Shown here: piece by piece, positions 3,172-55,391 of the stretch | Numbering within the stretch: position 1 is the stretch's first letter | Layout: each line of letters starts with the position of its first letter | Source: an uncultured Alcaligenaceae bacterium | GTDB lineage: Bacteria; Pseudomonadota; Gammaproteobacteria; Burkholderiales; Burkholderiaceae_B | NCBI GenBank assembly: GCA_937896225.1 | Contig: CALBMZ010000099.1 | Location: 1 to 64,000 of the forward strand | Length of the DNA stretch: 64,000 nt | Direction: 5' to 3' | Translations under genes and position numbers: made by a program | The notes under the pieces: generated by a model | Databases searched by the model: none | Seen by the model: only the letters and a program-made list of their open reading frames with translations | What the model was told of the DNA's origin: nothing

Positions 3172-3765
3172 TTATTGCACCGGTCGATCAGGCGCTAAAA
3201 AATCAGCTAACGCAAATGCACTGTTTCGGCTTGTCACCGCCATAGCAAACAACCCTTTGTCTATTGGCCCATCAATAAGGGCTGAACCGATCAAGTGCCC
3301 CCCCGTCACCAATGCTAACGATTGCCCAATATGATCACGGCTCACACTTGTTAACTTACGTGACCCGCTATCAGACAAACGAATCGCTACAAAAAATTGC
3401 CCCGTTGCGTCAACCATTGGAGACGCCCCCTTAATGTCTGAGCGCGTCAATAACGACTCACGCTGCAGGTAAAGGGTATGCCGCCCTGGCCCATCAGACC
3501 ACGGCAATAGCCCTGGCGCATCTTGCGTCGAGGCCAAATGAAAAGCATAAGTGGGAAGTTTACTGGCCTCAGAAGGGTACATCGATTCCCAAAGCGCGCC
3601 GCAACCCGAGAGCATCAGTAAGCAAGCGACCACTAACATGTCGATGCTGCGTCTGAGCCACATAACTTGCTTAGGGCCGACTATCTTAGGCGTCTGTTGA
3701 AGAAGCGTCATGTCTGAGCCAAACACCCACCGTCTTAATTTACACATCATGTAAGCATAATGCAA
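3172..3765 (-). CDS. putative lipoprotein with stand-alone SecD P1-head-like domain
   Basis: Lipobox-like LMLSGCG after a hydrophobic stretch; LYLQRESLLTRSDIKGASP...FFVAIRLSDSGSRKLTSVSRDHIGQSLALVTGGHLIGSALIDGPI resembles the SecD P1 head. Start likely downstream of the ORF start. Confidence 0.6.
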   Translation of the reverse strand: MHYAYMMCKLRRWVFGSDMTLLQQTPKIVGPKQVMWLRRSIDMLVVACLLMLSGCGALWESMYPSEASKLPTYAFHLASTQDAPGLLPWSDGPGRHTLYLQRESLLTRSDIKGASPMVDATGQFFVAIRLSDSGSRKLTSVSRDHIGQSLALVTGGHLIGSALIDGPIDKGLFAMAVTSRNSAFALADFLAPDRPVQ

Positions 3766-9675: not shown

Positions 9676-9867
9676 GAGTGTATTGCTCTTTTTATGCTTC
9701 TCGTTAGGCTAACGTTAGGCCCCTCTATCTTAACAAAATATGGGCTTGAACCATTTTAATAGCACCTTAAAGCCCTATTTTTAAAGGGGAAAAGCGTTGT
9801 TGTCGCGAGATGAGGTTGTGCAGGCTGATTCGAATCGATCGCTCATCGCAAACCCTCATGCTAAAGT

Positions 9868-10038
9868 GTTGATGCTTTGGTGCTTTCGGTGCCGCATGGT
9901 GCAGGGTCAGTTTGACCTGCATGGCACTGGGAAAGTTAAACGGGAAACAGGACGCATTCTTTTTGAATGCCAGCCTGTGCTGCCCCCGCAACGGTCAACG
10001 TGATGTTTAAAAGCACTCACGCCAGCCCGATACCGGCC
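9868..10038 (+). promoter_or_regulatory. cobalamin riboswitch
   Basis: AAACGGGAAACAGG...CCTGTGCTGCCCCCGCAACGGT...CACTCACGCCAGCCCGATACCGGCC; upstream of btuB. Confidence 0.93.
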
Positions 10039-10085
10039 AAATAGCCATTTTTTGCTGAATAACAGCTCAAAATGTTTCCCTAATT

Positions 10086-10122: not shown

Positions 10123-12036
10123 ATGTCTTTCAAGCCATATTTATTGGCAACAGGCACTCTTGCCTGCTTGCTGCCTATCTTATCTGTTGCACAAAATATC
10201 TCTCCCCAGCAAACTGAAGCAACAAAACTCGATGCCATCATCGTGACAGCTACGCGTTCAGCTCAAACACTTAGAAGCACCATAGGTGACAACACGGTTG
10301 TGAATCGTGAAGCGCTTGACCAAACACCTGACTCAACCTTGGCAGAAGTACTTGGCCGCCAACACGCCATTACCTTTGTTAATTATGGTGGCCCACAAAC
10401 GTTATCAACTATTAACATTCGCGGCACCAATAGCAAACAAAGTCTAGTACTCATTGATGGGGTACGAACTAATAGCGGTAGCAGTGGTTTACCAGCCTTA
10501 AACGCGATGCCAATCAATAGTATTGATCGCATTGAAATTGTGCGTGGCGCGAGCAGTAGCTTGTATGGTGCTGATGCGATAGGTGGGGTGGTGAACATCA
10601 TCACCCGTAAACCAGGTGATAAACAACCTTTTAAGGCCTTTGCCAACATGGGTGTGGGCACTTACTCAAGCAGCGAATATGATGCTGGGTTTTCTGGGTC
10701 TCACAATGGGTTGAGCTACAGCTTGTATGGCGGGTATGGGCAGAGCGCGGGCTTCGATGCCACCACCAACAAAAATTATTATGCCAACCCCGATACAGAC
10801 TCTTATTATCGAAGCAATATTGGCGGCCAAATTGGCATGGCCTGGCAGACAGGTCAGACCTTAACGTTGAGTACATACCAATCACGTAGCAATGCAGGGC
10901 TTGATTTTGGTACGCCCTACTTTAATGACCGCGGCATTCAAACGTTAAGTAATACGACATTAACCAGTTCAAATCAAATTAATAAGATTTGGTTAAGTAC
11001 ATTTACGGCATCTATTCTGACTGATCAATACGAAAATAAAATAACACCTACAGGTAATTTCAGTGGTACAGAAACGTACAAAACAGATCAAACTCAATAC
11101 GTTTGGCAAAACAATTTCAAACTTTCTGAAACACAGCAATTTAGCCTCGCTTATGAACGTTTAAACCAAAAAATAACAGGGCAATTTTCTGATTATGATT
11201 ACGTCTCGCCATCTAATGTGGGTTATCAAAACGATGAAGTGTTTACCAATGCGTTTGTAGGCGTCTATCAAGGTGAGTGGGGGCCGCACGCAGTTCAGCT
11301 AAGTGCGCGTAACGATGCCAACTCACAATTTGGTAACTTTGCAACTGGTAGTATTGGCTACGCTTATCAGTTCACATCACAATGGCGCGCTAACGTGGGT
11401 TTTAATACCGGTTTTAGAGCCCCTAATTTTGATGAACTGTATTGGCCCTCAACAGCAGATTACCTCGGCAACCCCAACTTACAACCTGAAAAATCAAAAA
11501 ATATTGAAGTGGGTTTGCAATATACCCACCAGAGTGGTCAGCTTGGTTTAACAGCCTATCAAAATGAAATCAGCAATTTGATCCTGAACCAACCCAGTCA
11601 GCCCGGTAGTTATACTTACCAGCCTTTCAATATTGGGAACGCGACCCTTAAAGGCTTAACGTTTAATGGCAATCAATACATCACTAAGCATACACAAATC
11701 GTGGGTAGCTTTGATTGGTTAAGCCCGATCAATGATGACACTAATGAGTTGTTACCTTTACGTGCGCAACGCGTTTTGCGTATGGCAGCCGAGCATACTT
11801 GGGGTGAAGCGTTATTTGGATTGGAATGGTATTTGTCGAGCGCCAGAAGAGAGGTCTTTAGCAAAAACAATATGGGCGGCTACGGTTTACTCAATGCCTC
11901 TTTGGCCTACAAGGTTTCTAAAAACGCCACCGTTCAAGTACGATGGAACAACCTTTTAGGGAAAGAATATAACCTTGTGGAAAACTACAACACACCGGGT
12001 TCAAACGTGTTTGTTAACCTTGCATTAAGTTATTAA
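10123..12036 (+). CDS. btuB: TonB-dependent vitamin B12 receptor
   Basis: TonB-box-like DAIIVTATR, plug domain, C-terminal beta-barrel; under a cobalamin riboswitch. Confidence 0.9.
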   Translation: MSFKPYLLATGTLACLLPILSVAQNISPQQTEATKLDAIIVTATRSAQTLRSTIGDNTVVNREALDQTPDSTLAEVLGRQHAITFVNYGGPQTLSTINIRGTNSKQSLVLIDGVRTNSGSSGLPALNAMPINSIDRIEIVRGASSSLYGADAIGGVVNIITRKPGDKQPFKAFANMGVGTYSSSEYDAGFSGSHNGLSYSLYGGYGQSAGFDATTNKNYYANPDTDSYYRSNIGGQIGMAWQTGQTLTLSTYQSRSNAGLDFGTPYFNDRGIQTLSNTTLTSSNQINKIWLSTFTASILTDQYENKITPTGNFSGTETYKTDQTQYVWQNNFKLSETQQFSLAYERLNQKITGQFSDYDYVSPSNVGYQNDEVFTNAFVGVYQGEWGPHAVQLSARNDANSQFGNFATGSIGYAYQFTSQWRANVGFNTGFRAPNFDELYWPSTADYLGNPNLQPEKSKNIEVGLQYTHQSGQLGLTAYQNEISNLILNQPSQPGSYTYQPFNIGNATLKGLTFNGNQYITKHTQIVGSFDWLSPINDDTNELLPLRAQRVLRMAAEHTWGEALFGLEWYLSSARREVFSKNNMGGYGLLNASLAYKVSKNATVQVRWNNLLGKEYNLVENYNTPGSNVFVNLALSY

Positions 12037-12157
12037 CAACCCGCGCAAATAAATGACATGCTTTGATACATCATTTCATCATTTAGCATGTAAAACCTCG
12101 TGCTTCAGGGCTGGAAGATGGCAATATATGCTTAAACTTAAATAAAAATGTCTGACT

Positions 12158-13006
12158 GTGTTCAATAAACTCACTATTCACTTAACAGCTATTGTGCTGC
12201 ACCGTTTAAAAACCGGTGCAGCGTTGTTATGCTGCACCGGTTTTTTATCGTTTAACGCTTCTGCACAATCACAAAACGTACCACTGCGCATTGTGACCCT
12301 GACACCGCATGCCACAGAATTAGTCTTTGCAGCGGGTGGGGGGCAGCATATTGTGGCCACAGTGCAGGCCAGTGATTACCCAGCCAGTGTGCAGCATTTA
12401 CCAAAGGTTGGTTCAGGGTTGGGGGTTGAAGTTGAACCCATCATTGCGCAAAACCCAACACTGGTTGTGGGCTGGCCTTCACCCCTTTTAGATCGACTGC
12501 AAACGCTAGGCTTTAAAACCTTTGCCACCCAACCCCAGCAATTAAACGACATTCCAAATGAAATTGACGCCTTGGGCAAAGTATTAAATACTGAGCCTTT
12601 TGCCCACGCACAAAACGCAGCCTTAATAGCGCGCATTCAAGCGTTACCACACTTGGAACCTAAGTCGCCCATTAAGGTTGCTATTTTGGCTGACCAGCAA
12701 GCAAGTTATGCCATTGGTGGTCAGCACATCTTGAACGATGTGTTGAGGCGGTGTGGTGCCATAAATGTATTTGCCTCGCAACCGTCGGCCGCCCCCTTAA
12801 TTAGCCATGAGTCGCTGTGGGCTACCCAACCCGAGCTGATTATTGTGGGGCAAACCACTCAAAAACCATTTCAATTACCCCCAAAACTAGCTGATTTAAA
12901 GGCTAAAGTGTGGGTATTGAATGCTGACACTTTATTTCGACCCGGTCCACGCTTGATTGATGCGGCTGAACTCATTTGCAATCAGTTACAACTGGCCACA
13001 CAATAG
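12158..13006 (+). CDS. btuF: BtuF-like cobalamin-binding periplasmic protein (GTG start)
   Basis: RIVTLTPHATELVFAAGGGQHIVATVQASDYPASVQHLPKVG is typical of BtuF/FhuD-like proteins; next to btuB. Confidence 0.85.
   Translation: MFNKLTIHLTAIVLHRLKTGAALLCCTGFLSFNASAQSQNVPLRIVTLTPHATELVFAAGGGQHIVATVQASDYPASVQHLPKVGSGLGVEVEPIIAQNPTLVVGWPSPLLDRLQTLGFKTFATQPQQLNDIPNEIDALGKVLNTEPFAHAQNAALIARIQALPHLEPKSPIKVAILADQQASYAIGGQHILNDVLRRCGAINVFASQPSAAPLISHESLWATQPELIIVGQTTQKPFQLPPKLADLKAKVWVLNADTLFRPGPRLIDAAELICNQLQLATQ
12196..12246 (+). promoter_or_regulatory. candidate attenuator: three alternating complementary arms plus T6 inside the btuF-like 5' coding region
   Basis: GCTGCACCG (12196-12204), ACCGGTGCAGC (12212-12222), GCTGCACCGGT (12231-12241), then TTTTTT. 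Confidence 0.55.
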
Positions 13007-13092: not shown

Positions 13093-13908
13093 ATGTCCGA
13101 CCCCAAACCCCTCATCATTGCCAATAAAACCTATCAATCGCGTTTATTAATCGGAACCGGTAAGTACCGCGACTTTGAAGAAACGCGTCGAGCGATAGAC
13201 ATGAGTGGCGCTGAAATTGTGACAGTAGCTATTCGCCGAACCAATATTGGACAAAATAAGGGCGAACAAAGCCTGCTCGAATTTGTGCCACCTAACGAAT
13301 TTACACTATTACCCAATACGGCTGGCTGCTACACCGCCGACGATGCGGTTCGAACCTTACGTTTGGCACGCGAACTGTTAGACGATCACCGTTTGGTAAA
13401 ATTGGAGGTTTTGGGCGATGCCCACACATTATTTCCTAATATGCCTGAAACCTTATTGGCCGCAAAAACACTGGTTGATGAGGGTTTTGAAGTCATGGTT
13501 TACTGCACCGACGACCCGATTCAGTGTCGCATGCTTGAAGACATAGGTTGCGTCGCGGTCATGCCTCTAGCCTCTCTCATTGGGTCGGGCATGGGCATTT
13601 TGAACCCTTGGAATTTAAAGTTGATTATTGAACAATCACGCGTACCCGTTTTAGTTGATGCAGGGGTGGGCACCGCGTCTGATGCAGCGATTGCGTTGGA
13701 ATTGGGTTGTGATGCCATCTTAATGAACACCGCCATTGCAGGCGCCACCGACCCTATTTTAATGGCGAGCGCCATGCGTAAAGCCGTTGAAGCTGGCCGT
13801 GAAGCGTTTTTAGCAGGCCGTGTCCCCCGCAAAACCTACTCAGGCATACCTAGCTCACCAAGCGCCGGTTTAATGCCTTCAATTAGCCCTAAAACTAACG
13901 CTTCATGA
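13093..13908 (+). CDS. thiG: thiazole synthase ThiG
   Basis: [15 protein letters not shown]...[29 protein letters not shown]. Confidence 0.96.
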
Positions 13909-14741
13909 CTCAGCCCATACCCAATATTTTAACGATTGCTGGCATTGACCCTTCTGGTGGGGCAGGTGTATTGGCTGATGTCAAAGCAATCAGTGCACTG
14001 GGGGGTTATGCCTGCGCAGTGGTGGCGGCATTAACCGCACAAAATACGCAAACGGTTACTGACATTGAGCCGGTTTCACCCCGCTTTGTTGGGCAACAAA
14101 TTGACACGCTGTTTGATGACGTCAAAATCGATGCTTTAAAAATTGGTATGCTCGGTCAAGCCCCAGTCATCGAAGCAGTTTCGCAATGCTTGGGCCTTAG
14201 AGCGCCGCCACACGTTGTGCTTGACCCCGTGATGGTTTCAAAAAGTGGGGCGATGCTGCTTGAAGCTCGAGCGGTCAGCGCTCTACGTGAAGCGTTGTTA
14301 CCTTTAGCAACCTTCATGACGCCTAATTTGCCCGAAGCTTCTGTTTTACTTGAGCGGGGAGCAATAGAATCAAAACGCGATATGCGTCGGGTAGCCGAGC
14401 AGTTGCGTGAAATGATGAGTCACAAAGGCCAACGATGGGTATTTTTAAAGGGTGGCCACCTACCGGGTGACGATACGACCGATTTTTTGCATGATGGTGA
14501 TGTCATGATCGAACTACCCGGCCATCGTATCACCACTCAAAACACGCACGGTACAGGGTGTACCTTGTCCGCTGCGTTGGCTACTTTGTTGGGCTTAGGG
14601 CACACCGCTCCAGACGCTGCACAGGTGGCAAAAAAATACTTGGTTCAAGCCATTTCACAGGGGCACGAACTATCCGTTGGTCAAGGGCACGGCCCTGTTC
14701 ACCATTTCCATCATTTATGGCGCAAAACCCCCGTACAATAA
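13905..14741 (+). CDS. thiD: hydroxymethylpyrimidine/phosphomethylpyrimidine kinase
   Basis: [22 protein letters not shown]...[17 protein letters not shown] overlap with thiG. Confidence 0.95.
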
Positions 14742-54329: not shown

Positions 54330-55391
54330 GTGGGCCTGTCAAAACGTCGCTTGCGCGTATCAGTTCTAGGCGCAGGCGCCTGGGGTACGGCGCTGGCGGC
54401 AGCGGCAGCGCCGTACCATGACGTGTGCCTATGGGCTCGAGACACTGATTTAATTCAGTCTATGTCTGTACATCACTGTAATGCGCGATATTTACCTGAG
54501 ATGGCTCTGCCCACAAGCATTCGCTTTACCGCTGACCTCGCGCAAGCCATCGCGCATGGCTGCCCTTCGCAGGCGTCAAATGCCCCCGCACTTATCATTT
54601 TGGGTACACCCGTCATCGGTTTACGTGAAATGTGTATGCAATTGGTGCAACACCTAGATCGGTCAAGCCTAACGGTACCCCACACAACCGCTTCGCTTGT
54701 CTGGACATGTAAAGGCCTCGACCCGCATTCTGGGCAACTGCCCCATGAAATCGTAGCCGAGGTTTTTGGTGACTCAGGCCAGCACGAGCTAGGCGTGTTG
54801 TCTGGCCCTTCTTTCGCTAAAGAAGTGGCTCAAGGGCTACCTGTGGCACTCACCATTGCCAGCCATCATGAGGCTTTACGGGCAACTGTTCGAGAAGTCT
54901 TTCATCACGACCCAATTCGCATTTATGGCACGACTGACATCATCGGTGTCGAAGTCGGTGGCGCACTTAAAAACATTATGGCCATTGCCTGCGGTATTGC
55001 TGATGGGTTAGCACTGGGTAATAATGCACGCGCAGCTTTAATCACTAGAGGCTTAGCGGAAATGACTCGTTTTGGTGTAAGAATAGGGGCTGATGCAACC
55101 ACTTTTTCAGGCTTAACGGGTTTAGGCGACCTCGTATTAACCGCTACGGGCGAGTTGTCCCGTAATCGGCAAGTGGGTCTAGCATTAGGTAAGGGTCAAA
55201 GCTTACCTGAGGTTCTAGCAAGCGGGCTCACCGCCGAGGGGGTGCGTTGCGCGCAAGCCGTTCGGAGCCGCGCCAAGAAACTTGAGGTTGACATGCCAAT
55301 CACAGACTCTGTGTGTCAGGTATTGTTTAACCATGTACCTGTTAAACAGGCTGTTTCGCAATTGCTCGCCCGTGAAGCGAAGTCTGAATAA
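54330..55391 (+). CDS. gpsA: glycerol-3-phosphate dehydrogenase [NAD(P)+]
   Basis: VLGAGAWGTALAAAAA...GPSFAKEVAQGLPVALTIAS; GTG start. Confidence 0.96.
   Translation: MGLSKRRLRVSVLGAGAWGTALAAAAAPYHDVCLWARDTDLIQSMSVHHCNARYLPEMALPTSIRFTADLAQAIAHGCPSQASNAPALIILGTPVIGLREMCMQLVQHLDRSSLTVPHTTASLVWTCKGLDPHSGQLPHEIVAEVFGDSGQHELGVLSGPSFAKEVAQGLPVALTIASHHEALRATVREVFHHDPIRIYGTTDIIGVEVGGALKNIMAIACGIADGLALGNNARAALITRGLAEMTRFGVRIGADATTFSGLTGLGDLVLTATGELSRNRQVGLALGKGQSLPEVLASGLTAEGVRCAQAVRSRAKKLEVDMPITDSVCQVLFNHVPVKQAVSQLLAREAKSE

Follow-up and report, generated by a model that had tools for sequence, protein, structure and literature searches.

Can the codons of a secretion signal double as a transcription terminator? 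This question is raised by a hairpin with a T-run near the 5' end of a btuF-like gene in an uncultured Alcaligenaceae bacterium. The gene lies in a window of 64,000 nucleotides, which is the whole stretch of DNA analysed here. The relevant features, all on the + strand, are the following:

9865..10055, +, cobalamin riboswitch aptamer (RF00174) upstream of btuB; Rfam score 39.6 bits, gathering threshold 31.5
10123..12036, +, btuB-like gene for a TonB-dependent B12 receptor; TIGR01779 E 7e-108, below the curated cut-off, with Pfam plug and barrel domains
12037..12157, +, btuB-btuF gap of 121 nt
12158..13006, +, longest reading of the ORF for a btuF-like periplasmic binding protein, with a GTG start; PF01497 (Peripla_BP_2) E 2.5e-14
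12194..12196, +, likelier GTG start codon of btuF, giving the signal peptide MLHRLKTGAALLCCTGFLSFNASA followed by Q
12196..12204, +, arm A, GCTGCACCG
12208..12222, +, 5' side of the putative terminator stem, made of an A-tract and arm B (12212-12222)
12231..12245, +, 3' side of the putative terminator stem, made of arm C (12231-12241) and paired T's
12241..12246, +, T-tract TTTTTT, shared with Gly-Phe-Leu codons of the signal peptide
13093..13908, +, thiG, the downstream gene that would feel polarity; PF05690 E 1e-105
13905..14741, +, thiD; TIGR00097 above its cut-off

A first-pass annotation of this DNA had described three mutually complementary arms and a T-tract in the layout of an intrinsic terminator, and all of these elements are found exactly at the positions it gave (12190-12250 reads TATTGTGCTGCACCGTTTAAAAACCGGTGCAGCGTTGTTATGCTGCACCGGTTTTTTATCG). 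The B:C stem is perfect, as claimed, but it is longer than the 11 bp originally assigned. Pairing of AAAAACCGGTGCAGC with GCTGCACCGGTTTTT across 12208-12245 yields 15 Watson-Crick pairs, eight of them G-C, around an 8-nt loop; if an extension of one G-U and one U-A pair is counted, there are 17 pairs and the loop shrinks to 4 nt. The isolated stem has a calculated energy of -27.8 kcal/mol, and TTTTTT follows directly on its 3' side. These are the stable G+C-rich stem, short loop and U-run of an intrinsic (Rho-independent) terminator. The region 12150-12260 folds with a minimum free energy of -37.1 kcal/mol, compared to -20.8 +/- 2.8 for shuffled sequences (z -5.8), none of which is as good. 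Stem, U-tract and folding energy thus agree on the terminator layout. As 16-mers, arms A and C are almost identical, and they are read in different codon frames, so their repetition is not explained by codon choice. A long-range pairing of arm A with 12251-12269 (79% complementary) is compatible with B:C, but folding mostly does not predict it and it was set aside.

The nearest relative found is Alcaligenaceae bacterium UBA6179 (locus L039), which is apparently the same contig as C30 of the sister species G004. It is the one related locus returned from the genome collection; the viral collection yielded none. The surroundings of the hairpin bear out the earlier claim of a riboswitch-controlled btuB. 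The RF00174 aptamer, located about 2 kb upstream of the hairpin, precedes btuB with btuF downstream, which is the arrangement of a cobalamin riboswitch-controlled btu operon. The same aptamer is present upstream of btuB in 6 of 6 congener loci searched, and the order btuB-btuF-thiG-thiD-pcm-like gene is conserved in the congeners examined, as far as their contigs reach. In most congeners, btuF begins directly at the btuB stop codon or overlaps it. Here the 121-nt gap separates the two genes, and G004 has a comparable gap; the tight join is therefore absent in these two species. Neither a strong promoter nor a T-tailed hairpin was found within the gap, and promoter-like sites in the region show no excess over the chance rate.

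Three further observations concern these gene families. The genome's two FecCD permease genes sit on other contigs, and the btuB-linked btuF has no adjoining permease gene. A second BtuF-like protein, encoded outside the window at G000:C163:34640-39836, has genes for a FecCD permease and for a TonB-receptor-like protein as neighbours. The btuB of the sister species is divided between two reading frames near residue 240 (L039:1968-1984); the gene is a pseudogene there, or the assembly contains an error.

The btuF ORF matches the BtuF model NF002894 with E 6e-35, below the curated cut-off, and it has two plausible starts, GTG 12158 and GTG 12194. Identity to L039 at the three codon positions has a coding pattern over 12221-12280 (60/75/20%) and is flat over 12158-12193 (33/50/33%), and for this reason GTG 12194 is more likely to be the start. 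A coding type of conservation sets in only downstream of about 12200. GTG 12194 falls within one codon of ATG 3313 in L039, and GTG 12158 is also present there. The annotated distance of 38-88 nt inside the ORF holds if GTG 12158 is used; from the likelier GTG 12194, the hairpin begins about 15 nt in. Neither GTG has a Shine-Dalgarno sequence as judged by anti-SD duplex energies, which are +1.0 (GTG 12158) and +1.2 kcal/mol (GTG 12194), whereas the median over 208 ORFs is -2.9 kcal/mol. A six-codon ORF encoding MSDCVQ begins at ATG 12148, ten bases before GTG 12158, and occupies window positions 12148-12168. L039 has an equally long ORF at the corresponding position, with the differing peptide MPYRAS.

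Changes relative to L039 are concentrated at third codon positions over 12221-12268. The signal peptide is kept in the sister species (ALLCC..FLSFNA.AQ; MKPHHIFFGVALLCCAFFLSFNAMAQ in G004/L039 and MLHRLKTGAALLCCTGFLSFNASAQ here), whose btuF protein is 77% identical. Because third positions vary freely and the peptide is retained, the codons that form the hairpin are genuinely coding, and the placement of the arms in signal-peptide codons withstands this comparison. The T-run is also kept in the sister species, as TTTTTTTT, where it encodes Phe-Phe-Leu. The T-tract is largely explained by these conserved Phe-Leu codons.

The pairing itself is not kept. G004/L039 keeps 4 of the 15 stem pairs while its protein codons stay conserved, and the L039 region equivalent to the hairpin folds no better than shuffles (z +1.25). 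Relative to this one close relative, arm B differs at 9 of 15 sites and arm C at 6 of 15, in a region that evolves fast. Seven other congener loci were compared at their btuB-btuF junctions, and they contain no comparable hairpin and no perfect stem longer than 6 bp. Thus, among the genomes compared, the hairpin appears to belong to this species only. The conserved pairing or covariation of a transcription attenuator was sought in relatives, as had been proposed, and was not recovered, which is an outcome that the first-pass annotation had named as counting against its proposal. Since the nearest relative does not conserve the hairpin, evidence of a selected function is absent.

How unusual is such a structure? 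Hairpin statistics were compiled from a 346-kb sample (the window plus L064-L078) of the 2.65-Mb, 291-contig genome (G000). The btuF hairpin is the second-longest perfect hairpin in this sample. The longest (L074:8034-8072, 16 bp) and the third (L069:5247-5285, 14 bp) are both intergenic, and both share with it an AAAAA-stem-TTTTT layout. Inside ORFs, the 346 kb hold 20 perfect hairpins of at least 9 bp, including A:B itself, and of these the btuF hairpin alone is followed by a terminator-type T-run. About 0.2 of 19 such hairpins would be expected by chance to precede at least six T's in eight (19 x 0.012), so the T-tract alone argues only weakly for selection. When the peptide is fixed and codons are assigned by local usage, a perfect stem of 15 bp or longer turns up in 0.07% of synonymous sequences, and 35 of 20,000 equal the folding stability of the btuF hairpin. 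Most of the hairpin codons are common ones. The stem therefore requires no unusual codons, and selection on codons as its cause was set aside. A genomic repeat or uptake-type motif was also ruled out, because the genome holds no copy with up to one mismatch apart from the locus itself and 200 family genomes hold no convincing match.

Long perfect hairpins inside genes are in excess in this genome. Compared to synonymous shuffles, the 346 kb contain 19 rather than 7.0 of at least 9 bp, 9 rather than 1.9 of at least 10 bp, 7 rather than 0.5 of at least 11 bp (about 14-fold), and 4 rather than 0.07 of at least 12 bp. The congener G007 (340 kb, L084-L100) has 11 rather than 2.7 of at least 10 bp and 2 rather than 0.13 of at least 12 bp. 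Most of the excess hairpins lack T-runs, so terminator function cannot be their general cause. The excess fits a mutational process that generates palindromes, for instance template switching, which can create perfect hairpins (PMC8794818). Its occurrence in two members of the genus is the more general observation, and it is testable in many genomes.

The btuF hairpin is probably the product of template switching (a fold-back mutation) between signal-peptide codons whose complementarity was imperfect. In the comparison with a single close relative, either arm may have been the one rewritten. A palindrome arising upstream of the T-tract would be terminator-like at once, because the sister species also carries that tract. 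More generally, the T-rich Phe and Leu codons of signal peptides provide free U-tracts, and a palindrome formed just upstream could become a terminator, which would be a simple route to the birth of an attenuator.

Some other hairpins in the sample deserve mention. Five of the nine G000 intragenic hairpins of at least 10 bp lie within the first 110 nt of their ORF. A perfect 12-bp stem (window 54384-54417) occupies early codons of a glycerol-3-phosphate dehydrogenase gene (window 54330); its first arm is more conserved in relatives and its second carries clustered differences, as template switching predicts. Another, of 13 bp, lies in early codons of a Methyltransf_28-family gene (L066:14738-14768) and keeps 11 of 13 pairs in G004 despite five base changes in its arms, which implies paired changes.

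What, then, would the btuF hairpin do? It lies 3' of both plausible start codons, and every btuF mRNA must therefore cross it. Its possible role is therefore to attenuate btuF and the co-transcribed thiG-thiD; it cannot mark a boundary ahead of btuF, and the proposal that it separates btuB from btuF is not supported. An ordinary terminator of the btuB transcript, with btuF starting downstream from its own promoter, is extremely unlikely: the signal peptide encoded beneath the hairpin is conserved at the protein level, which places the start of btuF translation before the hairpin, and the regional promoter-like sites stay at the chance rate. The btuB-btuF gap of L039 does contain a weaker A+T-rich hairpin before TTTTT (3178-3226), and such between-gene termination could have been replaced here, but that region is no better than shuffles (z -1.1). 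In a dedicated three-arm attenuator, A:B would serve as an antiterminator or sequester the start codon, B:C would be the terminator, and btuF initiation or B12 status would choose between them. Equilibrium folds of successive prefixes have A:B forming first, by 12222 (about -17.1 kcal/mol). Arm A touches the likelier start codon, with the A:B pairing reaching the last base of GTG 12194, and the near-identity of A and C, for which codon choice does not account, also speaks for such a device. The competing structure for which the first-pass annotation proposed to fold 12150-12260 is thus predicted to form early, but it does not last. B:C is about 11 kcal/mol more stable and replaces A:B at 12238-12240, before the U-tract is complete. 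In these models A:B is therefore ineffective at equilibrium, though it might still compete kinetically, and the annotated role of a dedicated antiterminator is unsupported. A ribosome positioned on A would free B for the terminator, favouring termination instead of relief. With neither the pairing, the arms nor the leader peptide sequence found conserved in G004 or other congeners, the three-arm device is very unlikely.

Another possibility is that the hairpin is a neutral palindrome, a fold-back product in signal-peptide codons that is tolerated since ribosomes closely trail the polymerase, with little or no termination in the cell. This view is compatible with the general surplus of long perfect hairpins lacking T-tracts within genes of this genome and G007, with the lack of conservation, and with the Phe-Leu codons that account for the T-tract. 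However, the strongest hairpin inside an ORF happens to be the one with both an A-tract and a T-tract, and the weak translation signals of btuF make protection by ribosomes doubtful. Neutrality is possible but rather unlikely. The reading preferred here, and a somewhat probable one, is that the hairpin acts as an intrinsic terminator whose stem and U-tract double as btuF signal-peptide codons, partially dampening the btuB-btuF-thiG-thiD transcript unless ribosomes cover it.

If the hairpin is such a terminator, polymerase arriving from the riboswitch-controlled btuB transcript, or from an internal promoter before btuF, would make A and then B, giving a transient 9-bp A:B helix. Once C was made, arm B would switch to the B:C stem while UUUUUU occupied the exit channel, and a fraction of transcripts would be released near 12246. 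If a ribosome were already moving through these codons, it would sit on B or C and permit read-through. The yield of btuF-thiG-thiD mRNA would then depend on how well btuF is translated. Partial termination would be expected by default, because the start has no Shine-Dalgarno sequence and has lost its junction with the btuB stop codon. Should the hairpin terminate in the cell, the coding sequence of a secretion signal would restrain B12 uptake and the downstream thiamine genes at the level of transcription.

On this sequence evidence, the terminator anatomy is real, rare and well located; a role as a switch is a candidate only. A stronger proposal is distinctly unlikely: that one or two fold-back mutations made a species-specific, coding-embedded attenuator that ties btuF-thiG-thiD transcription to btuF initiation after the tight btuB-btuF join was lost, a regulatory RNA seen soon after its birth.

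The btuF hairpin would be a species-specific case of known intrinsic terminators inside ORFs. In E. coli, 3' ends with intrinsic terminators have been mapped in ORFs and 5' regions, including that of ispU (PMC7815308). The ispU/uppS 3' end resembles the btuF hairpin in having a stem and then a U-run near the gene start. Its stem has 6 bp, compared to 15-17 bp here, and it is a mapped 3' end, whereas the btuF hairpin overlaps signal-peptide codons and is a terminator predicted from sequence. A trailing ribosome suppresses an intrinsic terminator in a pyrL hairpin reporter (PMC5021804). Unlike translation-sensitive attenuators of this type, the btuF case has no conserved leader peptide with sensing codons and no known relief signal, and the translated gene is btuF itself; as in those systems, a trailing ribosome would block the terminator hairpin. 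The template-switch hairpins described previously (PMC8794818) are in RNA genes, whereas this one is in a protein-coding gene and was compared with one relative. Like them, it combines a perfect stem with a short loop and is absent in the relative.
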